The notes below the pieces were generated by a model that searched no databases, had not been told where the DNA came from, and worked only from the letters and a program-made list of their open reading frames with translations. From the NCBI GenBank assembly GCA_947311315.1, contig CAMZKN010000127.1:1-36474 (forward strand): a stretch of DNA of 36,474 bases. Direction: 5' to 3'. The stretch comes from an uncultured Desulfobulbaceae bacterium (lineage in GTDB: Bacteria > Desulfobacterota > Desulfobulbia > Desulfobulbales > Desulfocapsaceae). Position 1 is the stretch's first letter, and each line of letters begins with the position of its first letter. A program made the translations under genes and the position numbers. Below are positions 2,207-36,297 of the stretch, in pieces.

Positions 2207-3583
2207 TTATCTGTTGCTGGAAAGTTTATTATATTTTTTGAGTTTTCGCCATAGAGATACTCTGTCGATGCCGATGATTTTTGCAGCCTTTGTCTTGTTG
2301 CCATCGACATTTTTAAGGACTGAAAGAATATATTCGCGTTCATTTTCTTCAAGGCTCTTGTTAGGCTCTGTCGGGTAAAAAGATGGTTTTGAAACCGGGA
2401 TGTTTTGGTTGATATCCGGTGGGAGGTGGTGAATTTTTATTTCTGAATCATCGCAAAGAGCAAGAGATCGCTCAATGGTGTTTTCAAGTTCCCGGGCATT
2501 TCCTGGAAAGTCGTGCTCCTGAAGACGCAACAGGGCTTCTGGGGATATTCCTTTGATAACTCCATCCGATGGAGCAAATTTGGCAAGAAAATAGTTGACC
2601 AGGAGAGGAATATCATCTTTTCTCTCACGCAAGGGAGGAATGTGGAGGTGAACAACATTGAGTCGATAAAAGAGATCCTGGCGAAACGTCCCTTTTTCTA
2701 CTTCATCTTTGAGGTTTCTGTGGGTAGCAGCTAAAATGCGTACATCAATTGAAATTTCTTCAGTGCCACCAACCCGGATAATTTTCCTGTCCTGCAGTAC
2801 CCTTAAAAGCCGTACCTGCATGGAAAGCGGCATTTCACCGATTTCATCAAATAAAATGACGCCACCATTTGCAGATTCCAGCAGCCCGAGCCGCATGGAT
2901 CCGGCATCTGTGTAGGCATCTTTTTCATGGCCAAAAAGCTCATTCTGCATGAGTTCTTCTGTCATGGCCCCACAATTAAGAGGGAGAAAACGCCTGTTTG
3001 CCCGCGGGCTCAGTTCGTAGATAATTTTTGCTACAAGTTCCTTGCCTGTACCTGTATCACCGGTGATTAAAATATTACAGTCGAGCTGAGAAAAATGTGC
3101 TATGGAATCCTTGAGTTTGAGTATTTCAGGATTTTGTCCGATAAATTGAGTGGTCTCTTTTTGGGCATTAATGCGTTGTTTGAGACGACTGATCTCCCAG
3201 CGGAGCAATGTCTTTTCTGTGGCTCGAGTTACGAGTGTGAGCAATTCTTTGAGTTTAATTGGTTTTGAAAGATAGTAAAATGCACCCTGAGCCATGGCAT
3301 CTACAGCAGAGTTCACCGTAGCATAGCCGGTAACAATGATGACCTCAATTTCCGGATGGAGTTTTTTGGCAGTTTTCATCACCTGAACACCATCAATATC
3401 GTGCATTTTAAAATCTGTCACAACCAGATCAAAATGAGAGTGTTGCAGGAGTTCTATGGCTTCTTCCCCGCTTGCCGCAGTTGTAACAACGAACCCCTTT
3501 CGACTTAGAAAATGACCGACATTTTCCAGGTTGATGATTTCATCATCGACCAGCAGAATTGCAATTTTATTTTCGTCTGACAT
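2207..3583 (-). CDS. NtrC-family sigma-54-dependent response regulator
   Basis: 458 residues with the full NtrC layout. The receiver domain is residues 6-120, with acid pocket D13/D14, phospho-acceptor D57, T85 and K107. The AAA+ sigma-54 interaction domain follows (about 148-385; Walker A GDTGTGKE at 175-182, Walker B with D246/E247, R-finger region FYRLNV). A Fis-type helix-turn-helix closes the protein (about 412-455). It would activate sigma-54 promoters when phosphorylated. The loop that contacts sigma-54, normally GAFTGA, reads DAYTDA (222-227), which is unusual. It lies 15 nt downstream of the histidine kinase gene in the same direction, so the two form a cognate pair. Its receiver closely resembles the receiver inside the Lon-type protein at 9410-11437. 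Targets are likely the genes preceded by the TGTTGCA dyads. Confidence 0.93.
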   Translation of the reverse strand: MSDENKIAILLVDDEIINLENVGHFLSRKGFVVTTAASGEEAIELLQHSHFDLVVTDFKMHDIDGVQVMKTAKKLHPEIEVIIVTGYATVNSAVDAMAQGAFYYLSKPIKLKELLTLVTRATEKTLLRWEISRLKQRINAQKETTQFIGQNPEILKLKDSIAHFSQLDCNILITGDTGTGKELVAKIIYELSPRANRRFLPLNCGAMTEELMQNELFGHEKDAYTDAGSMRLGLLESANGGVILFDEIGEMPLSMQVRLLRVLQDRKIIRVGGTEEISIDVRILAATHRNLKDEVEKGTFRQDLFYRLNVVHLHIPPLRERKDDIPLLVNYFLAKFAPSDGVIKGISPEALLRLQEHDFPGNARELENTIERSLALCDDSEIKIHHLPPDINQNIPVSKPSFYPTEPNKSLEENEREYILSVLKNVDGNKTKAAKIIGIDRVSLWRKLKKYNKLSSNR

Positions 3584-3598
3584 TATTTTACCTGATAA

Positions 3599-5047
3599 TC
3601 AACCTTTGTCAGAAATATCAACGTCTTCGTTGTCTGTATAAAGAGGGAGCTCTGTGATAAATCGTGCGCCTTCTCCAACTTCCGATTCAACCCTGATGGA
3701 TCCCTGCAGCTTCTTTATAATGCCGTAAACAACGGCAAGTCCCAAACCGGTACCATCTTCTGCGTTTTTTGTGGTAAAGAAAGGGTCAAAGATCTCCTGA
3801 AGGTGTTCTTTTTCAATGCCGGTACCGGTATCTGCAACAGTAATGACAGCAGTATTGTCCCCAGAGTTTTTTTCAGCATAAATATAGACTGTACCTGGAG
3901 GTGATGGTATAGCCTGGATAGCATTAATGGTTAAATTGAGCAGGGCCTCGACCATTTTCTGTACGTCAATGAGAATAGTTATATCTTTTGGAATATCTGT
4001 TTTTAAAATAATGCCTGCCGGAACTTCACTGGCAACCAGTTGAGATACCTTGTTGACTACGGTGAATAAAAGACATGGTTGGAGGGAGAATGATTGCGTT
4101 CTTGAAAACTCGAGAAGGCCACGTACTATTTCTCCAGCTCGTTGGGTTTCCTGATTGATCGTGTTCAGCATTTTGACAACAAACGGATTTTGTTTTTCAT
4201 TGAGATCTGCAAGGGCAAGCTGACAGGAGGTTGAAATATTATTAAGAGGATTGTTTATCTGATGTGCTGTGCCAGATGCCAGTGTGCCAATAGAGGATAA
4301 TTTTTTTGCCTGGAAAAGTTGTTTTTGGTGTTCATCAAGATCTGTGACCATTTTGTTAAATGCCTGAAGAACTCGACGAACCTCACCTTTTTCTTTTTCT
4401 ACGGGCAAAAGTGTGAACGTTCCATTTCTTACACCAATTGCCGCATTCTCAACCATTTTTAATGGAGTGACTATCGATGTGTACAGAAGAATCCCGGTAA
4501 GGATTGAGAGTAGAACAAGAAAAAGCACAGCTTCTGCAAGGCGGTTATAGAATTTGTGGATGAATTCCTTCATATTCCGTTGTTCATATTGGACAAGATT
4601 TTCAGAAATAGTTACAAGCTCCTGGCCAAGATCGCGGATGATTTTTCTGGATGGGCACTGGGCAAGTGTCGTTTGGCGAGTGCATTCAACTTTTATTATT
4701 AAAAAACTGGTTTTGTATTTATCAATTTTGGCAGAAAAATCTCTAAGTTGTTCCGGTTGTGAAACGATTTTAAGATCATCTCTTAAAAGAGCTACTGATT
4801 TTTTGGCATCATTGATGTAGCTGAGTACTTTTTCAAAATCTTCATTGTCATGTCGGATAAGATAGTTTTTCTCATATCGTCGAATTTCCAGACAGATATT
4901 ACTGAGGTTTCCGGCACGCATTAAGAGTTCAACATCATCATTGAATAATTCGAAATCTTTTAAAAAAGTAATGCCTACAATAATGTGAAAAAGCAGGTGT
5001 AGAGCAAAACAGCCCACCATTTTCTGACGTAAATTAAGAGAGATCAT
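3599..5047 (-). CDS. membrane sensor histidine kinase
   Basis: 482 residues. Two transmembrane helices (about 11-29 and 173-190) bracket a ~140-residue, largely helical extracytoplasmic sensor region. A HAMP linker follows (about 190-243), then a HisKA dimerisation domain with phospho-acceptor H262 (TAHQINNPL) and an HATPase_c domain with N371/N375, D406 (DTGTG) and GTGLGLAVV near 432-440. The NtrB/ZraS-like H-box fits a partner of the sigma-54 regulator 15 nt downstream. The signal is unknown; the neighbouring Na+ and K+ transport genes suggest ionic or osmotic stress (inference). AGGGA is well placed before the ATG. The only reading frame upstream is doubtful. Confidence 0.93.
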   Translation of the reverse strand: MISLNLRQKMVGCFALHLLFHIIVGITFLKDFELFNDDVELLMRAGNLSNICLEIRRYEKNYLIRHDNEDFEKVLSYINDAKKSVALLRDDLKIVSQPEQLRDFSAKIDKYKTSFLIIKVECTRQTTLAQCPSRKIIRDLGQELVTISENLVQYEQRNMKEFIHKFYNRLAEAVLFLVLLSILTGILLYTSIVTPLKMVENAAIGVRNGTFTLLPVEKEKGEVRRVLQAFNKMVTDLDEHQKQLFQAKKLSSIGTLASGTAHQINNPLNNISTSCQLALADLNEKQNPFVVKMLNTINQETQRAGEIVRGLLEFSRTQSFSLQPCLLFTVVNKVSQLVASEVPAGIILKTDIPKDITILIDVQKMVEALLNLTINAIQAIPSPPGTVYIYAEKNSGDNTAVITVADTGTGIEKEHLQEIFDPFFTTKNAEDGTGLGLAVVYGIIKKLQGSIRVESEVGEGARFITELPLYTDNEDVDISDKG

Positions 5048-5372
5048 AGGGCATCCCTGATATATTGTTGTAGGGGAGAAGAATTGTAAACAATAAATGC
5101 ATATCTAATTCACACTGTAAATAAAATGTATCTCGATCTTTATAGGGTAAAGCGCTAACGCCGTAAACCGCAAGTAAGTACCTTGGAGGTATATACTTAT
5201 TTACCCGGTTCAATACTCCACTTAGTGTCTTATTTTTTGTTACAGCTTTTGGGGAGTATGGTACTAAGTACTGAAAAGGTACTTTCAAATCACTACTAAG
5301 CAATTTTAAAGCCAAGTAACTGGAAAACTCATTTTCATCATCAGGCTCTACTGAGTAGCCTCTATCATACAT
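5034..5372 (-). CDS. doubtful 112-residue hypothetical protein
   Basis: This reading frame starts at an ATG at 5372 and ends 14 nt inside the start of the kinase gene. The translation (begins MYDRGYSVEPDDENEF) has a balanced composition with no membrane helix, and I do not recognise it. Against it: no good ribosome binding site, AT-rich codons, and a position in a regulatory gap full of dyads. In favour: the overlap with the next gene is typical of an operon leader gene, and an 11-bp dyad (5361-5399) wraps around its start region, which would allow control of translation. It could be a small regulator or chance. Confidence 0.2.
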   Translation of the reverse strand: MYDRGYSVEPDDENEFSSYLALKLLSSDLKVPFQYLVPYSPKAVTKNKTLSGVLNRVNKYIPPRYLLAVYGVSALPYKDRDTFYLQCELDMHLLFTILLPYNNISGMPYDLS

Positions 5373-5399
5373 ATAAAAGTTGTCTCTCTGTATGATAGA
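5361..5399. promoter_or_regulatory. 11-bp dyad, 17-nt spacer
   Basis: TCTATCATACA (5361-5371) is perfectly complementary to TGTATGATAGA (5389-5399). It abuts the next dyad at 5399. It may be an operator or, on the minus strand, an RNA hairpin covering a possible start codon at 5370-5372. Confidence 0.55.
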
Positions 5400-5458
5400 A
5401 CACTGTTGCATAAACGCAACAGTGTTGCAATATGCAATGTTGTTTTTTGCAACATTGC
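5399..5458. promoter_or_regulatory. tandem TGTTGC/GCAACA dyads, candidate activator sites
   Basis: AACACTGTTGC (5399-5409) and GCAACAGTGTT (5416-5426) form a perfect 11-bp dyad with a 6-nt centre. Directly after it, GCAATGTTG (5434-5442) pairs with CAACATTGC (5450-5458). Overlapping both is GTGTTGCAA-TA-TGCAAT (5422-5438), which recurs with only the two central bases changed upstream of uspA. The pattern fits upstream activator sites of a Fis-type sigma-54 regulator, probably the one encoded at 2207-3583 (inference). Confidence 0.6.
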
Positions 5459-5723
5459 CTCTGGGGCGTCGCATGATGTTGTGAACATATAGTGCAAAAA
5501 ACGGTATGTTTTCAGTAAAAAACCCCAATTATTCAATATTTTTCTTAAACTGTTACATCCTGCAACACCAAAGTGTTTAGCATATCTCCTGTTGCTTTTT
5601 GAATTGCAATTTAGAGGAGTGAATTCCACGAAATTTACAACTTTGATGTAACAAAAGAAAAAACGGCATACGGGTTGCAGACTCACCGCAATATCTCTGT
5701 TATCAAATTTATTTGGTAGGTGG

Positions 5724-5739
5724 TGGATACCACTTTGCC
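5724..5739 (+). promoter_or_regulatory. sigma-54 promoter candidate for the permease-nhaD genes
   Basis: TGGATACCACTTTGCC has the invariant GG and GC 10 nt apart and a good TTTGC -12 element; the -24 element is weaker than TGGCAC. It lies ~210 nt before the permease start and ~270-300 nt downstream of the dyads at 5399-5458. Confidence 0.4.
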
Positions 5740-5948
5740 ACGAATTTTTTAAACTTTTGGAGGGGAAAATGAGAATTATGGTCAAAAAAGTAAAAACGGG
5801 ACAGAATACACATTCTCCACCGTGGTTTTGGTGTGGTTTATGTAGTTTGGATGGAGGTTTTTCCTGTAGTGACAAGAGTTATGTCCCATGGGATGCAAGG
5901 ATGTCTTACCACCAACCAGTTATGGAAAAATAGGATACTAAGGAAAAA

Positions 5949-7760
5949 ATGACTTTACCAATAATATTGGTCATGGCCGTTCTGGTCCTGGCTATTCTAC
6001 TTTTTATTTTTGAATGGGTTCGTGTGGATGTTGTTGGCATCCTGATGATGATAATTCTTCCTCTTCTTGGATTGGTTACTCCAAAGGAGGCTATCAGTGG
6101 ACTATCAAGTAATGCTGTTGTTTCGATCATCGCTGTAATTATAATAGGTGCGGGTCTTGATAAGACAGGAGCGATGAATTCTCTTGCCAGAATTTTATTA
6201 AAATTTGCGGGCAAAAGTGAATCCAGGATTATGGTTCTTATCTCGGGCACGGTAGCATTTATCTCAAGTTTTATGCAGAACATTGGCGCTGCAGCCCTCT
6301 TTTTGCCGGCGACAAAAAGAATTTGTCGTCAGACAAATATCCCGGTATCACGCATTCTTATGCCCATGGGTTTTTGTGCAATTATTGGTGGTTGTATTAC
6401 CCTCATTGGATCGAGTCCCCTTATTTTGCTCAACGATGTGATGAAAATCTCTGACCCGGATGTGGAGCCTTTTGGGCTTTTTGCCGTAACTCCGGTGGGG
6501 CTTGCCCTGATTGTGGCCGCTCTTATATATTTTGTTGTGTTTGGCCGTTTTGTGCTGCCTGCCGGCAGCGGAGACGAAGGCGGTGAGGGGCCGATGTCCC
6601 AGGAGCTCCAAAGGACATACCGCGATATTGGTAGATTGTACGAAATAGAGGTGCCAGATACTTTTGAAGGACCTCAGACACTCGATGAGTTGGATATAAG
6701 AAGAATGTTTTTTTGTACAATTCTTGGTATTGCAGGCAAGAGTCAACCCTCAGTGGCTTCTCCGGGATTTTCTGATTCCATTAATCCCGGTGATACTATC
6801 ATTGCAGAGGGGCCTCCTGATCTTGTAGCTAAAATGGCTCAAGCTTTTGGTTGGATAATAAAAGATGACCTTGAGATTTTTGCTGAAGCGATGTCACCTA
6901 ACAATTTTGGTACCATGGAGGCGATTATCACGCCTAGATCTGAGCTGGTTGGCAATACCATGCGTGATCTGTCATTCAGGAAAAAAAATGGTGTCAGTCC
7001 TGTGGCTGTATTCAGGGATAACAAGACCTTTGTTGGTGATATCTCAACAATGAAACTTCAATCAGGTGATGCCCTGTTGTTGCAGGGGACCTGGGAAAAT
7101 TTCCATTATTTGAAAGAAAAAACAGGCATTGTTTTAAGTGAAAATGTGCAGGGTGAAATACTTCGGACAGATAAAGTCAAGTTCGCGGTTGGTAGTTTGA
7201 TTCTTGCCTTAACAATGATTCTTGGTTTCCATGTACAACTTTCCATTGCTCTTCTCACAGGTGCTCTGGCAATGATCCTTACCAAGGTATTATCGATTGA
7301 TGAAGCCTATGATTCAGTGGATTGGATGACTGTTTTTCTGCTTGGTGGTCTTATTCCATTGGGAATTGCCTTTGAAAAAACAGGTGCTGCAAAATTAATA
7401 GCTGAAACCATCATGGGTTCCATGGGAGTTGTGGCACCCATAGTGCTCTTAACAGTTATTGCAATTTTGACATCATTTTTTACCCTTGTGGCTTCAAATG
7501 TTGGTGCAACTGTTCTCATGGTACCATTAGCTATGAACATGGCAGGTTCAGCCGGGGCTGATCCCAGAATTGCTGCGCTTGTGGTGGCAGTAGCGTGTTC
7601 GAACACATTTATTCTTCCAACTCACCAGGTCAATGCGTTGATTATGCGTCCGGGTGGCTATAAAACAAAAGACTATTTTAGAGCAGGTGCTGGTATGACT
7701 ATTTTGTACCTGGTTGTGATGATGGCAGCTATTGCCGTGTTTTATGGGGTCAACGGTTAG
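5949..7760 (+). CDS. SLC13-type permease with two RCK_C (TrkA-C) domains
   Basis: 603 residues, an inner-membrane transporter of the divalent anion:Na+ symporter/ion transporter superfamily. The first helix block is about 3-203. A cytoplasmic loop of ~200 residues carries two RCK_C domains (about 228-305 and 322-395, the second ending DISTMKLQSGDALLLQG). The second helix block is about 410-600. Conserved transport motifs are FMQNIGAAALFLP (108-120) in the first half, and SNVGATVLMVP and SNTFILPTHQVNAL in the second. RCK_C domains usually sense small ligands. The substrate (sulfate, dicarboxylate or other anion) cannot be read from the sequence. AAGGA lies 6 nt before the ATG. nhaD follows after 108 nt, probably in the same transcript. 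The long upstream gap suggests activator control. Confidence 0.85.
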   Translation: MTLPIILVMAVLVLAILLFIFEWVRVDVVGILMMIILPLLGLVTPKEAISGLSSNAVVSIIAVIIIGAGLDKTGAMNSLARILLKFAGKSESRIMVLISGTVAFISSFMQNIGAAALFLPATKRICRQTNIPVSRILMPMGFCAIIGGCITLIGSSPLILLNDVMKISDPDVEPFGLFAVTPVGLALIVAALIYFVVFGRFVLPAGSGDEGGEGPMSQELQRTYRDIGRLYEIEVPDTFEGPQTLDELDIRRMFFCTILGIAGKSQPSVASPGFSDSINPGDTIIAEGPPDLVAKMAQAFGWIIKDDLEIFAEAMSPNNFGTMEAIITPRSELVGNTMRDLSFRKKNGVSPVAVFRDNKTFVGDISTMKLQSGDALLLQGTWENFHYLKEKTGIVLSENVQGEILRTDKVKFAVGSLILALTMILGFHVQLSIALLTGALAMILTKVLSIDEAYDSVDWMTVFLLGGLIPLGIAFEKTGAAKLIAETIMGSMGVVAPIVLLTVIAILTSFFTLVASNVGATVLMVPLAMNMAGSAGADPRIAALVVAVACSNTFILPTHQVNALIMRPGGYKTKDYFRAGAGMTILYLVVMMAAIAVFYGVNG

Positions 7761-7773
7761 TAAGAATTCTTCA

Positions 7774-7805
7774 GCGGCTGCTTCTATGCATTACAGGGCA
7801 GCCGC
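7774..7805 (+). other. intercistronic hairpin between permease and nhaD
   Basis: GCGGCTGC (7774-7781) pairs perfectly with GCAGCCGC (7798-7805) across a 16-nt loop. No T-run follows, so it looks more like an mRNA-stabilising or attenuating structure than a terminator. Confidence 0.5.
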
Positions 7806-7868
7806 ATGATTTGCCATTCATAAAAGTCTACTTTTCACCAATTCTTTTAAAATACAAGGATTCCTGTA

Positions 7869-9293
7869 ATGAAGATTTTCCTGTCGTGCTCTGTTTTTCT
7901 GCTTGCTGGTGCTGTTCAGGCGTTTGCTTCCTCCGGCCACGGAGAAAGTGGTTCTACAATGACGTTTACTTCAACGGCTCTTGGCTATGCGTCGCTTGTT
8001 ATTTTTGTTCTAGCCTATGCTCTTGTAATATTTGAAGAGAAAACGCATCTGCGTAAGAGTAAGCCGGTGATGATGGCGGCCGGGATTATCTGGATTCTGC
8101 TGGCGATAACATTTCGCATGGCAGATCTTCCTCCAGAAATGGCGCATAATGCAATTCTGCACAATATGACAGAGTACGCTGAGTTGATGCTTTTCCTGCT
8201 CTCGGCTATGACATATATTAACTCAATGGATGAACGTAATGTCTTTCAGGCCTTGCGCTCTACACTCGTTTCCAGGGGGTTTTCGTTGCGGGTTATCTTT
8301 TGGATCACCGGTTTTCTCGCCTTTGTCATATCACCGGTTGCAGATAATCTGACCACTGCACTGCTTATGGGGGCGGTGGTTATGGCTGTGGCAAAAGACA
8401 ATAAAAAATTTGTTGCTCTGGCGTGTATTAATATAGTCGTGGGTGCTAATGCCGGTGGTGCTTTTTCTCCTTTTGGTGATATTACTACTTTGATGGTTTG
8501 GCAGAAAGGGCAGGCTACATTTGGTCAGTTTTTCTATCTTTTTGCGCCCTCTCTTTTAAACTGGGTGATTCCTGCAGCGATAATGAGTCTCTTTGTATCA
8601 AAGGATGTTCCGCAACCACTCGATGATAAAGTCACCATGAAGTTTGGGGCTAAAAGGATCATGTTTCTCTTTATCATGACCATTGTTACTGCAGTATCAT
8701 TCCATAATTTTCTTGATCTTCCACCTGCTGCCGGCATGATGCTGGGGCTGTCATATCTTGGCTTTTTCTCCTACTATATTAAGGTAAAAGAGAAACGAAA
8801 GATCGAATATGACGCACCTTTTGGTAGGGCTGAGGGTGGTGAGCAGTCTGAGTCGTTTGATATATTTAAGAAAATTGCCAGGGCGGAATGGGACACATTG
8901 CTCTTCTTTTATGGTGTCATTCTCTGTGTCGGTGGTTTGTCGCAATTTGGCTATCTTGCATTGGTCTCTCATCAGATGTATGTAGGGCTGGGTGCAACAT
9001 ATGCAAACGTCCTTGTGGGAATTCTGTCTGCTATCGTTGATAATATTCCGGTCATGTTTGCAGTATTGACAATGGATCCGGTCATGCCACTGGGGCAGTG
9101 GCTCCTGGTTACTTTGACCGCAGGTGTCGGCGGGAGTCTGCTCTCAATTGGTTCTGCTGCAGGAGTTGCCTTGATGGGAACAGCCAGGGGCACATATACT
9201 TTTGGAGCACATTTGAAATGGGCACCGGTTGTTGCTCTGGGATATGCTGCAAGTATTTATTGTCATATACTTCTTAACAGTCGTTTGTTTTAG
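7869..9293 (+). CDS. nhaD: NhaD-type Na+/H+ antiporter
   Basis: 474 residues. A signal-like N-terminal helix (about 3-20, ending near AFASS) is followed by a short polar stretch and ~12 membrane helices. Family landmarks are HNMTEYAELMLFLLSAMTYINSM, SPVADNLTTALLMGAVVMAV, NAGGAFSPFGDITTLMVW and, near the C-terminus, NIPVMFAVLTM and GVGGSLLSIGSAAGVALMG. NhaD proteins exchange cytoplasmic Na+ (or Li+) for external H+ and serve pH and salt tolerance. The gene follows the SLC13-type permease and precedes the receiver-Lon protease. An AAGGA lies 9 nt before the ATG. Confidence 0.93.
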   Translation: MKIFLSCSVFLLAGAVQAFASSGHGESGSTMTFTSTALGYASLVIFVLAYALVIFEEKTHLRKSKPVMMAAGIIWILLAITFRMADLPPEMAHNAILHNMTEYAELMLFLLSAMTYINSMDERNVFQALRSTLVSRGFSLRVIFWITGFLAFVISPVADNLTTALLMGAVVMAVAKDNKKFVALACINIVVGANAGGAFSPFGDITTLMVWQKGQATFGQFFYLFAPSLLNWVIPAAIMSLFVSKDVPQPLDDKVTMKFGAKRIMFLFIMTIVTAVSFHNFLDLPPAAGMMLGLSYLGFFSYYIKVKEKRKIEYDAPFGRAEGGEQSESFDIFKKIARAEWDTLLFFYGVILCVGGLSQFGYLALVSHQMYVGLGATYANVLVGILSAIVDNIPVMFAVLTMDPVMPLGQWLLVTLTAGVGGSLLSIGSAAGVALMGTARGTYTFGAHLKWAPVVALGYAASIYCHILLNSRLF

Positions 9294-9318
9294 TGCCTCA
9301 CTCGTAAAGACACCTACA

Positions 9319-9334
9319 AGGTATATTACTTGCA
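9319..9334 (+). promoter_or_regulatory. weak sigma-54 promoter candidate before the receiver-Lon gene
   Basis: AGGTATATTACTTGCA has GG and GC 10 nt apart and a perfect TTGCA -12 element, but a poor -24 element. It is ~75 nt before the ATG of the protease gene. Confidence 0.3.
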
Positions 9335-9409
9335 GCTTGTCTGCATTAGTGTCTTATCGTTTGCTGGTGGAACCACAATAAATCATTTAAATTGCATGCA
9401 TAGGAAATA

Positions 9410-11437
9410 ATGGGTTTCTTCTCAAAAAATGAAAATAATTCAGCTGCAAAGGAACCGGTGGTCTCCCACAGTTCACAACAGATTGAAGATCTGAAGAGCA
9501 AAGTGAGCAGCATAGATTTGCCAGTCTATGTTGCACGGCAGATTACTTCTGAACTGGACAGGCTTGAAAAAACTGATCCGGTTGCTGCTGAATTTTCCAT
9601 AAGTGTAAATTACATAGAACTTCTTCTTTCTCTGCCGTGGTTCAGTGAAACCAAAGATAATCTGGATCTTAACCGGGCGGAGATGATCCTCGCCACGCAC
9701 CATCATGGGCTTGATGCCGTCAAGGAACGTGTACTCGAATTTCTGGCGGCCAAGACGCTTAAAAACCTTCAGAAATCGAGAATGCTTATTGTCGATGATG
9801 AAGAAATTGCCCGGGAAAATTTGAGTCACTATTTTAAAAAACTGGGCCATACTGTTCAGATGGCCGCAAATGGTGTTGAGGCTCTTGAGCAGATAGCAGA
9901 TAGTGATCATTTTGATGTGATGATTACAGATCTGAAAATGGATAGAATGGATGGGCTTACTCTGATCGAGGAAGTTGCCAAAACTTCTCCTGAGACCAGT
10001 GTGGTAATGGTTACCGGCTATGCAACGGTTTCCAATGCTGTGGATGCCATGCGAAAAGGTGTGACCCATTACCTGCCAAAACCCGTTAAGCTCGAAGAGC
10101 TCAAAGAGACAGTGGAAGAGTTGCTGCAGAAACAGAAAAAGCTCCAGATAAGCCAGGGGCCGATTCTCTGTTTTGCAGGCCCCCCCGGGACAGGAAAGAC
10201 GTCAATAGGTGAATCTGTTGCCGCTTCTCTTGGTCGGGAATTTGTTCGCCTGTCCATGGCGGGTTTGCGTGATGAGGCGGAGATACGTGGGCACCGAAGA
10301 ACCTATGTTGGTGCAATGCCCGGCAGGATTATCAGTGAAATTAAGAGAGTAGGTGTGACAAACCCCTGTTTTATGCTTGATGAAATTGATAAAATCGGAC
10401 AGGATTTCCGTGGCGATCCTGCTTCTGTCCTTCTGGAGGTACTTGATCCGGAGCAGAATAAAAATTTCACTGATCATTTTCTTGATATTCCGTTTGATCT
10501 GTCTGGTGTACTGTTTATTGCTACCGCCAATGATATTTCGAAACTTCCGGGACCATTGCTGGATCGTCTGGAGGTAATAGATTTTTCAAGCTATTCTTTT
10601 AAAGAAAAAAAAGTGATTGCCAGAAAATATCTCTTGCCCAAGCAACTCAATGCACATGGTTTAAAGGAAAGGAATCCACAGTTTACGGAGGCAGCGCTCG
10701 GCAAACTTATCACTGACTATACCCGGGAGTCAGGTGTGCGTGGGCTCAACAGGGTGATTGGTAAGATATGCCGTAAACTTGCTCTGATAGCGCTTAAAAA
10801 TGATCCGGATGAACCTCTGCCTGACCTTGATGAACAGGATATCACACCGATGCTCGGGCCCCGGAAATATCGACAGGAAGCGGCCGAGGGAGAGGATAAG
10901 GAAGGTGTGGTAACAAGTCTTGTCTGGACCAGATTCGGTGGCGAAATTATGTTTATTGAGGCGCTGGCGATGCGGGGGAGTACCAACCTCATTCTTACCG
11001 GTTCACTGGGAGAGGTTTTGCGTGAATCAGCGCAGACTGCTTTAAGTTACATTCGCAGCAACACAGAACAGTTTGGCATAGAAGATGATTTCTATGATCA
11101 TTCCGATATCCATATTCATCTTCCTGCCGGTGCTGTGTCAAAGGATGGTCCTTCAGCCGGTCTTGCCATCGCCGTCGCCCTTGTTTCTCTATTGACGCAC
11201 CGCCCAGTTCATCGAAATGTCTCAGTTACCGGCGAGATGACTCTTACGGGACAGGTTCTTCCTGTTGGGGGCGTACGGGAAAAGATATTGGCCGGCGTGC
11301 GAACCGGTTGTGTCAAAGTAGTTTTGCCTGCAAAAAACCGGGAAGATGTGGCATCTCTTAACAGTGATGTTACAGGTCAGTTAGAGCTTGTCTATGTTGA
11401 TACTCTTGAGGAGGCAATAGAACATATGCTGGTTTGA
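9410..11437 (+). CDS. Lon-type (S16) AAA+ protease with internal response-regulator receiver domain
   Basis: 675 residues. The start lacks the Lon N-terminal PUA-like substrate domain; residues about 22-121 match the helical arm that normally leads into the AAA+ module (YIELLLSLPW, NLDLNRAEMIL, HGLDAVKERVLEFLAAKTL). A complete receiver domain is inserted at about 122-245, with acid pocket D129/D130, phospho-acceptor D174, T202 and K224. Lon sequence then resumes exactly at GPILCFAGPPGTGKT (Walker A, K263), with Walker B D324/E325 and GHRRTYVGAMPGR near 294-306. The protease domain has catalytic S582 (KDGPSAG) and K625 (GGVREKILAG), 43 residues apart as in E. coli Lon. All active sites look intact, so this should be a cytoplasmic ATP-dependent protease gated by phosphorylation, with the nearby kinase the obvious donor (inference). 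A strong terminator follows. Confidence 0.92.
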   Translation: MGFFSKNENNSAAKEPVVSHSSQQIEDLKSKVSSIDLPVYVARQITSELDRLEKTDPVAAEFSISVNYIELLLSLPWFSETKDNLDLNRAEMILATHHHGLDAVKERVLEFLAAKTLKNLQKSRMLIVDDEEIARENLSHYFKKLGHTVQMAANGVEALEQIADSDHFDVMITDLKMDRMDGLTLIEEVAKTSPETSVVMVTGYATVSNAVDAMRKGVTHYLPKPVKLEELKETVEELLQKQKKLQISQGPILCFAGPPGTGKTSIGESVAASLGREFVRLSMAGLRDEAEIRGHRRTYVGAMPGRIISEIKRVGVTNPCFMLDEIDKIGQDFRGDPASVLLEVLDPEQNKNFTDHFLDIPFDLSGVLFIATANDISKLPGPLLDRLEVIDFSSYSFKEKKVIARKYLLPKQLNAHGLKERNPQFTEAALGKLITDYTRESGVRGLNRVIGKICRKLALIALKNDPDEPLPDLDEQDITPMLGPRKYRQEAAEGEDKEGVVTSLVWTRFGGEIMFIEALAMRGSTNLILTGSLGEVLRESAQTALSYIRSNTEQFGIEDDFYDHSDIHIHLPAGAVSKDGPSAGLAIAVALVSLLTHRPVHRNVSVTGEMTLTGQVLPVGGVREKILAGVRTGCVKVVLPAKNREDVASLNSDVTGQLELVYVDTLEEAIEHMLV

Positions 11438-11465
11438 CGGGTTGAAACGTTTTAAATTGGACTTG

Positions 11466-11505
11466 GGGTGCATTCAGGATGTTTTTCGGAATGCACCCTT
11501 TTTTT
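11466..11505 (+). terminator. rho-independent terminator of the receiver-Lon gene
   Basis: GGGTGCATTC (11466-11475) pairs perfectly with GAATGCACCC (11489-11498), followed by seven Ts. This ends the upstream transcript, so uspA must have its own promoter. Confidence 0.9.
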
Positions 11506-11539
11506 GTTGCATATTGTTACACAGTTTCATCATGCAACA
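11505..11539. promoter_or_regulatory. TGTTGCAT ... ATGCAACA half-site cluster
   Basis: TGTTGCAT (11505-11512) and its complement ATGCAACA (11532-11539) flank TGTTACA (11515-11521). The half-sites match those in the permease upstream region. The cluster is ~245 nt upstream of the sigma-54 promoter of uspA. Confidence 0.45.
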
Positions 11540-11666
11540 GTTCAGCGATATTCTCGACAGGAATTGGAGGCATATGTATATAGACTGTTTAATCAGTATG
11601 TTAGCGTCAATGTTATCGTGTTTTGAAGAGCTGGGCGTAGTGTCTTTTGGTAGAGAGGAAAAAAAA

Positions 11667-11683
11667 GTGTTGCAAGCTGCAAT
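11667..11683. promoter_or_regulatory. shared dyad GTGTTGCAA-GC-TGCAAT, candidate activator site
   Basis: Fifteen of 17 positions equal the site at 5422-5438, only the two central bases differing. It lies ~100 nt upstream of the sigma-54 promoter at 11782, the usual distance for an enhancer-binding protein. Confidence 0.6.
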
Positions 11684-11781
11684 TATTCGCTCATTACATT
11701 TTGATTAAAACTGAGATTGATTAGACGTAAAACTTATGTAACATGCTGATATAATACTTTAATATGTGGTGAATGTCAGGC

Positions 11782-11797
11782 TGGCATGGTATGTGCT
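11782..11797 (+). promoter_or_regulatory. sigma-54 promoter of uspA
   Basis: TGGCATGGTATGTGCT matches the -24 element TGGCA and the -12 element TGCT with the required 10 nt between GG and GC. The predicted start of transcription is near 11808, ~54 nt before the uspA ATG. It is the best sigma-54 match in the window. Confidence 0.65.
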
Positions 11798-11861
11798 AAA
11801 TAAGGTGTATAAGGACAAAACTTACTATTCATAAACATATCCATTTTAAAAGGAGAACATC

Positions 11862-12416
11862 ATGGGCTTTACAGATTGGTTTACATTTGGAAAGAAAAAA
11901 AATACAGATGTCAACGTGCAGAAAATCAAAAAACAATCTGTTGATATCGGCGCAACAGCTTTAGGCAGCGGTGCTGCGGCAGCAGATGCGATTGCCAAAA
12001 TGGTGGATCAGGAAAATGCTCCGACAAAGGTACTCATGGTTCAGGATGGAGAGTATATGAGTCAGGTTACAGAGTATGCGTTGAAAATGGCCCAACGACT
12101 CGATTGTGAGATTATAGCTCTTGATGTAACGGAGAAACCACTCAGTTTTACAGGAGAGAGAAGAACGCGTGAGAGTGATCGTTTTATTGAGATGGCCACC
12201 AAAAATGCGGAGCAGTTCGCTCTGCAGGCAAAAGCCCGGGGTATTAAAGTCGAACATATTATGGATATCCAGAGTCCCGAAGAGGTTGTTGCCCGCGTGA
12301 GTCATGCTGATGCTGGAATTCGCTATGTCTTGAGTAAGCCTGAAGGTGGTGCAGCAAGAGCAGATCAGGAACGCGCGCATGTGCCGGTAATTGATCTCCA
12401 TTGTTCACGTTTGTAA
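11862..12416 (+). CDS. UspA-family universal stress protein, degenerate nucleotide site
   Basis: 184 residues. An N-terminal extension of ~52 residues, starting MGFTDWFTFGKKK with a small-residue run AATALGSGAAAADAIA-like near 31-45, precedes one USP domain (about 54-182: KVLMVQDG... YALKMAQRLDCEIIALDV ... HVPVIDL). The ATP-binding loop typical of many USPs (G..G then nine residues then GS) is absent; the region reads SKPEGGAARADQERAHVPV, so it is probably a non-nucleotide-binding, signalling-type USP. AGGAG lies 7 nt before the ATG. The sigma-54 promoter at 11782 and the dyad at 11667 suggest control by the two-component system. A small membrane-protein gene follows after 15 nt. Confidence 0.8.
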   Translation: MGFTDWFTFGKKKNTDVNVQKIKKQSVDIGATALGSGAAAADAIAKMVDQENAPTKVLMVQDGEYMSQVTEYALKMAQRLDCEIIALDVTEKPLSFTGERRTRESDRFIEMATKNAEQFALQAKARGIKVEHIMDIQSPEEVVARVSHADAGIRYVLSKPEGGAARADQERAHVPVIDLHCSRL

Positions 12417-16713: not shown

Positions 16714-17280
16714 TTATCGTTTGATGTAGCTGAACTTCTGGCCGCCAACACTGGCCTCATACATTAATCCACCCTTGGTAATAGTGAATGTGGCCATACC
16801 TTTGTTGTACCCACTTTCGCCAATTTTGGCATTGTTTTTACCCCCACTAACTGTGGCCGAGCTACCGCCGGTATTGGCTGATGCGCCAACTGAGGCAGTT
16901 AATGCAACAGCCTCGACATCTGCACCGAACTCGAAATTACCGGTAATGAATTCGGCAAATGCACGTTTATCCTGAAAAAAAACGATTTGACTGAAGCCTG
17001 AGCCTCCAATTTGAAAACCTATTGTTGCCTGGGTCATGGCGGTGTCACCATAATACTTGTCCTGTACATATACGCGCCCCTTGCCATATGCTCCACCAAT
17101 AACAAATCCGGCTTTACCAATGGTGGGAAAGAGTGCGTATCCATACGAACTTGCAAACATGTTTGAGAGCCCGGAGTCTTCAAACATTTTCTTTGTGTCC
17201 GAATACTCATCGGCCCAGGCGGAGGAAAAGGCCAGGGATAAGATTGTACTAAGTAGAACAATGCGCAGGATGATTTTCAT
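16714..17280 (-). CDS. secreted SYLF/Ysc84-domain protein
   Basis: 188 residues. A signal peptide (MKIILRIVLLSTILSLAFSSAWA) is followed by a SYLF (DUF500) domain: SGLSNMFASSYGYALFPTIGKAGFVIGGAYGKGRVY, GFQIGGSGFSQIVFF, then FGADVEAVALTASVGASAN. SYLF proteins bind lipid; bacterial secreted forms are periplasmic and poorly understood. The ATG at 17280 is chosen because the signal peptide begins there and it overlaps the upstream EamA stop by 4 nt (ATGA), implying translational coupling. An imperfect GGTGAG/CTCACC hairpin lies just downstream (about 16675-16703) without a T-run. Confidence 0.85.
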   Translation of the reverse strand: MKIILRIVLLSTILSLAFSSAWADEYSDTKKMFEDSGLSNMFASSYGYALFPTIGKAGFVIGGAYGKGRVYVQDKYYGDTAMTQATIGFQIGGSGFSQIVFFQDKRAFAEFITGNFEFGADVEAVALTASVGASANTGGSSATVSGGKNNAKIGESGYNKGMATFTITKGGLMYEASVGGQKFSYIKR

Positions 17281-18188
17281 GTTTGTCTTCCTTTTTTGCT
17301 GAGGTTCTGGCTTAAAATAACACCGCCGATTATGACTGCTGCTGCAAAGTATTGGTTGGTTGTGAAAGATTCTCCCAATATGAACCATCCCAGTATAACA
17401 GAAAATAAGGGAATCAGGTTCACATAAGATGCAGCTTTACTTGCTGGAACATGTTTGAGGGCATAACTGTACAGGCCGTATGCTCCGAGGGTGATAACAC
17501 CTCCGAGGTAAATGATGGCGAAGGTGGAGGTGGTGTGAACGGCTTGAGGGAGGTGTACAGAGGGTAAAAAGATAAGAGGGAAGTAGAAAATACAGCCGAT
17601 AAAAGCCTGAATTGCAGTGAGGAAAAATGGTGAATATCTGCTGGTTAGATACTTGAGGGTGATCGTATAACCAGCGGCACATATCATAGCCAAAAATTCG
17701 TAAAAGTTGCCGAGAATGGGGTTTGGCCCATTTGCACTTGGATTACTTTCCAGGGTTAGCCAGCATACCCCTCCAACAGCAATGATTGCACCCAGCCATG
17801 ATTTGCCCTTTATACGCTCTTTCAGTATCTGGCTGGCACCAATCATTACCAGTACAGGCAGTATTGCTGTGATTAGTCCGGCCTGGGACGCAGTTGTGTG
17901 AACGATGGCTCTTGCTTCAAAAAGAAAATAGAGACAGGGCTCACAAAAGCACATAAACAGCAGGAGCTTATAGTCACCTTTGCGGTAATGTAGGGCACGG
18001 GTAACCCGTTTGGCTACGATGAGAAAACAGATGCTTGCCACAAGCATACGGCCAAAAATGACCACCATAGGATCGTAGGATCGAAAGGCTATTTTAAGGG
18101 CAATAAAAGAGCTTGCCCAGAGAAGCATTGCCAGTATCAGCCCTAGAGTGGGCAGGAGGGTTGTTTTTCCAGTTGAGATTTTAACCAT
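17277..18188 (-). CDS. EamA-family (DMT superfamily) transporter
   Basis: 303 residues with ten predicted membrane helices in two homologous EamA halves. The first half starts LGLILAMLLWASSFIALKIAF and contains FEARAIVHTTASQAGLITAILPVLV. The second starts near residue 160 (FYEFLAMICAAGYTITLKYL) and ends VNLIPLFSVILGWFILGESFT...AAVIIGGVIL. EamA proteins export or import small metabolites; the substrate cannot be inferred. The stop overlaps the start of the SYLF gene by 4 nt. The upstream gap to the glycine-zipper gene contains a terminator, so this gene begins a separate transcript. Confidence 0.9.
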   Translation of the reverse strand: MVKISTGKTTLLPTLGLILAMLLWASSFIALKIAFRSYDPMVVIFGRMLVASICFLIVAKRVTRALHYRKGDYKLLLFMCFCEPCLYFLFEARAIVHTTASQAGLITAILPVLVMIGASQILKERIKGKSWLGAIIAVGGVCWLTLESNPSANGPNPILGNFYEFLAMICAAGYTITLKYLTSRYSPFFLTAIQAFIGCIFYFPLIFLPSVHLPQAVHTTSTFAIIYLGGVITLGAYGLYSYALKHVPASKAASYVNLIPLFSVILGWFILGESFTTNQYFAAAVIIGGVILSQNLSKKGRQT

Positions 18189-18303: not shown

Positions 18304-18759
18304 CTAGTTTTGCAGTTCCCACTGGCCTGCTGCATTTCTACAGGCTGTGGTGTATGTTTTTTCTGTCTTGCCGTCAATGGTTGCAAGAATTTCTGCCTTT
18401 CTGCAAGGTCTGCTTGGAGCTGCGGCGGTTGTGTATGCTGGCTGCGGGGTAACCTTGTAATTATTGCCGCTGTCCGGGTTTTGCCAGGTGGTGGTTTGGC
18501 CGGATTTGCCAAATTCATATGTCTGATTCAGTTCCTGTCTGTCGAATTTGTCCATTTCGTTGCCCACAATATATCCAAGCATGGTACCAACGGCAGCACC
18601 GATAAGCGTTGCTTCAGTGTTGCGACCAATGGCCTGCCCAATAATAGCACCACCGGCAGCTCCAATTCCTGCGCCTTTCTGGCCTTTGGAAAACTGGTCA
18701 CCGCAGGAACTGAGACCAAGTATAAGTAAAGGAAGAAGGATAAGAATTATTTTTTTCAT
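18304..18759 (-). CDS. glycine-zipper outer-membrane lipoprotein
   Basis: 151 residues from the ATG at 18759, which has GGAG 7 nt upstream. The N-terminus is a lipoprotein signal peptide with lipobox LGLSSC. A glycine-zipper membrane segment follows (KGAGIGAAGGAIIGQAIGR ... GAAVGTMLGYIVGNEMD). The C-terminal part (FGKSGQTTTWQNPDSGNNYKV, then PCRKAEI and TTACRNAAGQWEL) resembles the 17-kDa surface-antigen family. Such proteins sit in the outer membrane and are often linked to envelope stress; the role is unknown. Transcribed alone, with its own terminator. Confidence 0.85.
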   Translation of the reverse strand: MKKIILILLPLLILGLSSCGDQFSKGQKGAGIGAAGGAIIGQAIGRNTEATLIGAAVGTMLGYIVGNEMDKFDRQELNQTYEFGKSGQTTTWQNPDSGNNYKVTPQPAYTTAAAPSRPCRKAEILATIDGKTEKTYTTACRNAAGQWELQN

Positions 18760-18858
18760 TTTTTTCTCCATTGTAAAATTAGAAATTTATTAAATGTTTA
18801 AAACACTTATACTCATAGTCATTTTTCTGGGGTATTGCAAGCAGACATAGGTAGACAT

Positions 18859-35052: not shown

Positions 35053-35696
35053 TGGATCAGTATCGGACAGTCAGGGAGAGGATGGTTGAGGAACAGATTG
35101 TCCGTCGTGGTATCACTGATAAAGGGCTTATTGCGGCCCTTCTCGCAGTACCCAGACATTTTTTTGTCGACGATGCCATGGGGGGGAGAGCCTATGGTGA
35201 TCACCCTTTACCGATTGGAGCCGGTCAGACTATTTCCCAGCCCTATATTGTGGCATGTATGACGGAGGCTCTGGAGCTTCATGGAACTGAAACGGTACTT
35301 GAAATTGGTACCGGATCCGGATATCAGGCAGCTGTACTTTCAAGGTTGTGTGCCCAGGTGTATAGTGTCGAAAGAATGAATTCACTTCTCGCTGGTGCAC
35401 GAAAAAATTTTGATAAACTGCGTTATTATAATATTCGATCAAAACTTGATGATGGCACACTTGGCTGGCCTGAATGTGGTCCGTATGATGCTATTATTGT
35501 CACTGCCGGAGGCCCTGAAATTCCGGAACTACTGATTGATCAGCTTGCTGATCCGGGCAGGCTGGTTATACCTGTTGGTGATCAACATGAGCAGGAATTG
35601 CAGCTTCTGGTAAAAAATAATGGACAGGTGGATGTTACTCATCTTGCCCGCGTCCGTTTTGTTGATTTGGTGGGAGAATATGGTTGGGACGACTGA
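35049..35696 (+). CDS. pcm: protein-L-isoaspartate O-methyltransferase
   Basis: 215 residues, usual length. Family marks are RHFFVDDAMGGRAYGDHPLPIGAGQTISQPYIVA-type sequence (35-68), the SAM-binding motif VLEIGTGSGYQAAVLS (83-98), YDAIIVTAGGPEIP and GRLVIPVGD. It repairs isoaspartyl residues in aged proteins with S-adenosylmethionine. It lies between a lipoprotein gene and a VTT membrane gene, both overlapping, so the three are one operon. The start ATG overlaps the previous stop. Confidence 0.95.
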   Translation: MMDQYRTVRERMVEEQIVRRGITDKGLIAALLAVPRHFFVDDAMGGRAYGDHPLPIGAGQTISQPYIVACMTEALELHGTETVLEIGTGSGYQAAVLSRLCAQVYSVERMNSLLAGARKNFDKLRYYNIRSKLDDGTLGWPECGPYDAIIVTAGGPEIPELLIDQLADPGRLVIPVGDQHEQELQLLVKNNGQVDVTHLARVRFVDLVGEYGWDD

Positions 35697-36297
35697 ATCG
35701 GCAGATAAGCCAAATATAGTACGAAGAACTTATGACCAGTGTATGGAGTGGATAAGTGGGCCTTATGGCATATGGGTTCTTTTTTGTATTGCAGTTGTCG
35801 AATCCTCTTTCTTTCCCATCCCGCCTGATGTATTTCTCATTGCCATGTGTGTGGCTGTACCGGCAAAATCATTTCGTTATGCGGCGGTTTGTGCGGCGGG
35901 ATCTGTTATTGGTGGAGCTTTCGGGTATGGCTTGGGCTTCTGGTTTATGGATAGTGTTGGTATGCCAATTGTCAACTGGTATGGCCTGGCTGACAAATAT
36001 GATATGGTTCGGCACTATTTCATGGAATACGATGTATGGATTGTGGGCACGGCGGGGTTTACTCCGATTCCTTATAAGCTGTTCACGATTACAGCAGGGT
36101 TTGTTCATTCGAACTTCCTTACTTTTATGTTGGTATCACTGGTGGCCCGTTCGGCAAGGTTTTTTCTGGTCGCGGGACTTGTCTGGAAATTTGGTCCTCA
36201 GATAAAGGGATTTATTGACAGATATTTTAACATCCTCTCCGTTGTCTTTACGGTTCTCCTTGTCGGAGGATTTGTTCTTATTAAGTATATTTTATAG
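35680..36297 (+). CDS. VTT-domain (YqaA/DedA-like) inner-membrane protein
   Basis: 205 residues from the ATG at 35680, which overlaps the end of pcm by 17 nt and has GGGAG just upstream. Helices are predicted near 28-48, 55-80, 120-150 and 180-204. Motifs are ESSFFPIPPDVFLIAM (40-55), GGAFGYGLGFWF and GFTPIPYKLFTITAGF, typical of the VTT/SNARE-associated family. Recent work ties DedA-type members to lipid carrier and phospholipid flipping; YqaA-type members are less known. The third gene of the lipoprotein-pcm operon. Confidence 0.85.
   Translation: MVGTTESADKPNIVRRTYDQCMEWISGPYGIWVLFCIAVVESSFFPIPPDVFLIAMCVAVPAKSFRYAAVCAAGSVIGGAFGYGLGFWFMDSVGMPIVNWYGLADKYDMVRHYFMEYDVWIVGTAGFTPIPYKLFTITAGFVHSNFLTFMLVSLVARSARFFLVAGLVWKFGPQIKGFIDRYFNILSVVFTVLLVGGFVLIKYIL

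Follow-up and report, generated by a model that had tools for sequence, protein, structure and literature searches.

The window analysed here, the whole 36,474-nucleotide stretch of DNA from an uncultured Desulfobulbaceae bacterium, encodes a Lon-type protease, hereafter RR-Lon, that carries a receiver domain within its own chain and belongs to an old, conserved and widespread family found in two phyla. Two-component systems mostly have a transcriptional output, and a response regulator with an ATP-dependent protease as its output would let a sensor kinase act on protein destruction directly, with no adaptor in between. We consider it probable that RR-Lon forms the protein-degrading branch of a three-component system, in which phosphorylation of D174 by a shared kinase gates the protease.

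A Lon protease with an inserted receiver

RR-Lon, 675 amino acids long, is the product of the open reading frame at 9410–11437 (+). Pfam matches cover a receiver (Response_reg, residues 126–235, 94.8 bits), an AAA+ module (AAA, 253–390), a lid (Lon_lid, 415–465) and the protease domain (Lon_C, 474–675), and the score with the NCBI endopeptidase La model TIGR00763 ‘lon’ is 700 bits, above the cut-off of 608. As expected of a LonA protein, both PF00004 and PF22667 are matched by the AAA+ module and lid, and LonA proteins are the best relatives of known structure. Alignment to these structures places a helical arm at residues 24–118 (9479–9763, +), equivalent to residues 9–103 of Bacillus Lon 3m6a, followed by the receiver at residues of about 122–243 (9773–10138, +); the core restarts at 243/248 and comprises the AAA+ module and lid (residues 248–465; 10151–10804, +) and the S16 protease domain (10829–11434, +). 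The insertion point corresponds to the interval between residues 338 and 346 of MtaLonA.

The residues on which both activities depend are intact. The receiver retains D129, D130, D174 (the phospho-Asp, at 9929–9931), T202 and K224; the protease domain has the Ser-Lys dyad S582 (11153–11155) and K625 (11282–11284), 43 residues apart and in the KDGPSAG context of the S16 family; and the Walker A motif GPPGTGKT and the Walker B pair D324-E325 are invariant among RR-Lon relatives. The substrate-binding N-domain, PF02190 (LON_substr_bdg), gave no match in RR-Lon even at E = 10; it is present in the genome's other two Lons, which are of the ordinary kind (809 and 812 aa). The earlier note, made from the sequence alone, had given the open reading frame, the layout, each of these receiver and dyad residues and the missing N-domain correctly. 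The receiver, which the note suggested may replace the N-domain as control point, does not occupy its position in the chain, since the N-domain has been lost at the N-terminus and the receiver lies on the other side of the arm. At the N-terminus itself, RR-Lons of the two phyla have in common a short conserved tag, M-x-(F/L)-F-x-(K/R) (9410–9433, +; 84/85 by a loose pattern), possibly for docking or self-recognition.

Thus arranged, RR-Lon resembles two kinds of protein. With LonA (E. coli Lon, MtaLonA, Bacillus Lon 3m6a) it shares the arm, AAA+ module, lid and Ser-Lys domain, with a core about 50% identical, but it is without the N-terminal substrate-binding domain or collar, has the inserted receiver and occupies a separate tree branch. 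With NtrC-type sigma-54 response regulators (EBPs) it shares a similar receiver sequence placed directly before an AAA+ ring module, whereas its AAA+ module is of a different clade, an arm precedes its receiver and its output is expected to be proteolysis rather than sigma-54 activation.

An AlphaFold2 model built with 31 sequences (mean pLDDT 82.8, pTM 0.73) has an intact receiver and the fold of LonA protomers, with a TM score to 3m6a of 0.94 on the target. In the model, arm helix 102–120 leads into receiver strand 1, and receiver helix alpha5 (228–248) abuts the first AAA+ strand (252–256). With such short joints, the receiver would be well placed to relay a presumed conformational change.

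Distribution and ancestry of the RR-Lon family

The earlier note had named conservation of the insertion point as a check on its reading, and relatives without D174, or a receiver seen only as an assembly chimera, as grounds for giving it up. The receiver stands at the same point in all aligned full-length RR-Lons, between arm and AAA+ core and 5–14 residues before the core, and the layout recurs in independent genomes. Among 88 aligned relatives, counting members with a residue at the position in question, D174 is found in 88/88, D129 in 87/87, T/S202 in 88/88 and K224 in 88/88, and the protease dyad is equally constant (S582 88/88, K625 87/87); once the second phylum is added, D174 is present in 108/108 receivers. 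The invariance of both sets of residues makes it unlikely that the receiver is a dead spacer.

Full-length matches bearing the receiver account for 28 of 57 relatives. RR-Lon occurs in 37 of 297 genomes of the phylum, in 103/297 genomes of an order that includes a Desulfonauticus genome, and in 25 of 198 genomes of a second phylum, which was reached via a Nitrospirae-labelled locus; loci L026–L056 come mostly from Desulfobulbaceae and Desulfocapsa MAGs. A search of a plasmid collection returned as its best matches only ordinary Lons, with 75–87% query cover. In a Lon tree built with the receiver left out, 57 RR-Lons fall on one side of a branch and 44 ordinary Lons on the other (SH-aLRT 100), and a single fusion event is therefore the simplest history.

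The window comes from a draft genome of 230 contigs, a setting in which one might suspect a chimera, from assembly or recombination, or a gene in decay. The probability of this is negligible: the layout is found in independent assemblies from two phyla, including single-contig genomes, the catalytic residues are intact, and the family forms one strongly supported branch of the Lon tree. RR-Lon is a real and conserved protein, and by its sequence it looks functional.

Kinase, sigma-54 regulator and shared repeats

A kinase-EBP pair lies 4 kb upstream of RR-Lon. It comprises a histidine kinase with an N-terminal helical sensor and HAMP, HisKA and HATPase_c domains (3599–5047, −), the probable cognate kinase judging from Pfam and linkage, and an NtrC-type EBP (2207–3583, −). 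Divergent from this pair are an SLC13/CitMHS-type anion transporter with TrkA_C domains (5949–7760, +), an NhaD Na+/H+ antiporter (7869–9293, +; NCBI model search) and RR-Lon, and these are followed by a gene for a 184-aa Usp-like protein, linked to RR-Lon and below the Pfam cut-off (11862–12416, +), and by TrkA-TrkH. The Usp-like protein is degenerate and is conserved beside RR-Lon; its start, MGFTDWFTFGKKK, resembles the RR-Lon N-terminal tag.

The partnership is conserved. Of the 50 RR-Lon loci flanked on both sides by 4 kb or more of DNA, 40 have both kinase and EBP within 8 kb, and none of 23 ordinary-Lon control loci has a kinase or EBP nearby. Other neighbours are Usp genes (27/50 loci), the SLC13-type transporter (22/50) and NhaD (10/50). 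In the second phylum, kinase and EBP accompany RR-Lon in 18 of 20 loci, mostly in the order RRLon-HK-EBP and in one direction. At one such locus (L222), Pfam identifies divergent Usp-like, TauE/SafE and tandem Usp genes, as described for Desulfovibrio vulgaris, and genes of similar length to these recur in other second-phylum loci. L029, L030, L034 and L037 have another kinase-regulator pair directly beside the RR-Lon-linked one, its members sharing about 33% and 42% identity with those of the linked pair.

The earlier note knew of no characterised protein of this layout, but one was reported in 2011: DVU3303 of D. vulgaris. This RR-Lon was placed in a ‘three-component system’ alongside a histidine kinase and a sigma-54 regulator, and it was proposed that its protease activity may need phosphorylation (Rajeev 2011, PMC3333781). 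Both the layout and, as speculation, its phospho-control are thus already published; our literature searches for further work on Lon-receiver proteins returned only D. vulgaris papers. The targets given for the regulator are its own operon, DVU3302-3298 (UspA-type and membrane proteins) and a potassium transporter, and orthologues are mentioned in Thermodesulfovibrio, Thioalkalivibrio and Dechloromonas (PMC3333781). In a 2023 fitness study of D. vulgaris, DVU3303 and the kinase and EBP genes have pairwise cofitness above 0.9, disruption is beneficial in chlorate, and the anion transporter DVU3299 is named as a target (PMC10102598). The cofitness could in part be polarity, because DVU3303-DVU3305 form one operon.

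The system in the window is alike in that DVU3303, a Lon-bearing response regulator, stands beside histidine kinase DVU3304 and sigma-54 regulator DVU3305, and RR-Lon has a linked kinase and sigma-54 regulator at 2207–5047. Among the targets of the DVU3303 system are an anion transporter, Usp-type proteins and membrane proteins; in the window, Usp-like and transporter genes are linked and have shared inverted repeats upstream. The arrangement differs: instead of one operon of three genes, the kinase-EBP pair is separated from RR-Lon by 4 kb and lies on the other strand, with the transporter and NhaD genes between them. The presumed orthology with DVU3303 draws on the published description and on L149 and L150, two members of the family in which the genes are ordered as in D. 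vulgaris.

The receivers themselves point to a common kinase. Of the 78 receivers in the genome, that of the neighbouring EBP is nearest to the Lon receiver (46% identity; the next, 39%). Helix alpha1 of receivers is the docking helix for kinases, and at its position 137 an Asn is found in 106/108 Lon receivers and 67/68 partner EBPs as against 1/14 other EBPs; the other cleanly aligned receivers among the 30 top-scoring ones of the genome all lack it. Covariation of alpha1 between cognate Lon and EBP receivers is weak, being reached by 17 of 500 permutations, and a receiver tree has too few columns to show whether or not the Lon receiver is a copy of the one in the partner EBP. The best reading of these sequences is that one kinase phosphorylates both EBP and RR-Lon.

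The likeness extends to helix alpha4, in which Lon receivers are 59% identical to partner-EBP receivers and 40% to those of other EBPs. Sister receivers of this kind are also what one would expect if the receiver served mainly to capture substrate, pairing through its alpha4-beta5-alpha5 face with the phosphorylated EBP, or with other regulators, and feeding it to the protease in a negative feedback. Capture would suit a protein without the normal substrate-binding N-domain, and the genes for RR-Lon and its EBP partner appear co-regulated through the inverted repeats described below. In D. vulgaris, however, mutants in the protease gene have the phenotype of kinase or EBP mutants rather than the opposite one (PMC10102598), although polarity could mask a difference. 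We regard capture as the main rival to direct phospho-gating, and as improbable.

An inverted repeat, TGTTGC-N5-GCAACA, occurs seven times in the window against 2.0 expected, a number reached by none of 100 shuffles, and six of the seven sites fall in intergenic stretches 5048–5948 and 11438–11861. Three repeats with N5 or N6 spacing stand in the gap between kinase and transporter (5404–5421, 5423–5439 and 5438–5454), the one at 5404 being a perfect N6 variant, and a further one, TGTTACATCCTGCAACA (5551–5567), has the same site in five other loci (L027, L028, L031, L032, L046). Upstream of the Usp-like gene are two repeats at 11505–11521 and 11523–11539 and a third, TGTTGCAAGCTGCAATT (11668–11684), with the same site in L028 and L035. 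Allowing at most one mismatch, 65 sites were counted in 192 kb of non-coding DNA at RR-Lon loci, versus 3 in 784 kb of coding DNA; they stand upstream of RR-Lon, kinase, transporter and Usp genes, and because some of the loci are close relatives, not every site counts as independent. In the second phylum, 7 sites fall in 60 kb of non-coding DNA and none in 283 kb of coding DNA. We infer that the repeat is the putative binding site of the EBP.

Weak sigma-54-like −24/−12 sites are found at 5664–5679 (+; CGGCATACGGGTTGCA), a candidate promoter of 5949–11437, and at 5299–5314 (−; TGGCTTTAAAATTGCT), a candidate kinase-EBP promoter, and another sigma-54-like site lies upstream of the Usp-like gene at 11782–11797 (+; TGGCATGGTATGTGCT). 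A scan of the window for such elements gave 20 matches where 22 are expected by chance, and these sites, none above chance, are therefore only suggestive.

The repeats appear to tie transcription of RR-Lon to the EBP, and transcription alone might then control a constitutive protease whose receiver serves as a phosphate sink or as a spacer in the structure. We think this quite improbable. The five invariant receiver residues would be superfluous in a spacer, as would an intact Walker/Ser-Lys enzyme in a pure sink, and in the model the extended alpha5 helix links the receiver to the AAA+ core.

Proposed control of proteolysis by the receiver

Direct phospho-gating is the best-supported mechanism. 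The membrane histidine kinase would phosphorylate two response regulators with sister receivers, the EBP and RR-Lon. The phosphorylated sigma-54 activator would turn on the anion/cation transporter, the Usp genes and the system's own genes; phosphorylation of D174 would most likely shift the alpha4-beta5-alpha5 face and the alpha5 helix of RR-Lon, and in this way gate either assembly of the ring or substrate entry. New transcription would thereby be coupled to selective protein degradation during ion, pH or oxyanion stress. The earlier note's proposal of a protease switched directly by phosphorylation is supported in part: it fits the invariant phospho-site, the conserved kinase partner and the predicted joining of alpha5 to the AAA+ module.

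Gating and receiver pairing may also be combined, in a phospho-gated Lon ring whose receiver pairs with that of the partner EBP, one kinase setting both transcription and its proteolytic shut-down; we put this forward as a tentative idea, more doubtful than probable. Were gating and receiver pairing both true, no response regulator before RR-Lon would have been shown to carry an ATP-dependent protease as output in its own chain. RssB and CpdR, receiver-type adaptors of ClpXP, offer a close precedent for proteolysis under the control of receiver phosphorylation, but these are separate adaptor proteins, whereas the receiver of RR-Lon is part of the protease itself.

Residues 253–784 of E. coli Lon, which are without the N-domain and correspond roughly to RR-Lon minus its receiver, are hexameric and cannot degrade casein or HspQ (PMC8835725). 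Because that fragment fails on casein and HspQ, RR-Lon is unlikely to be a general quality-control protease, and by the same analogy its layout might make a poor protease whatever the phosphorylation state. Since such a minimal E. coli Lon shows no activity on standard substrates, RR-Lon, with a receiver but no N-domain, would also be a clean system in which to study the role of the Lon N-domain.

Elsewhere in the window, 143–1990 (−) encodes a 615-aa fusion of a 2-oxoacid:ferredoxin oxidoreductase gamma subunit with an NADPH-type pyridine nucleotide oxidoreductase. Other genes encode a YSC84-like protein that scores below the cut-off (16714–17388, −), a glycine-zipper protein (18304–18771, −) and a VTT-domain protein (35620–36297, +).
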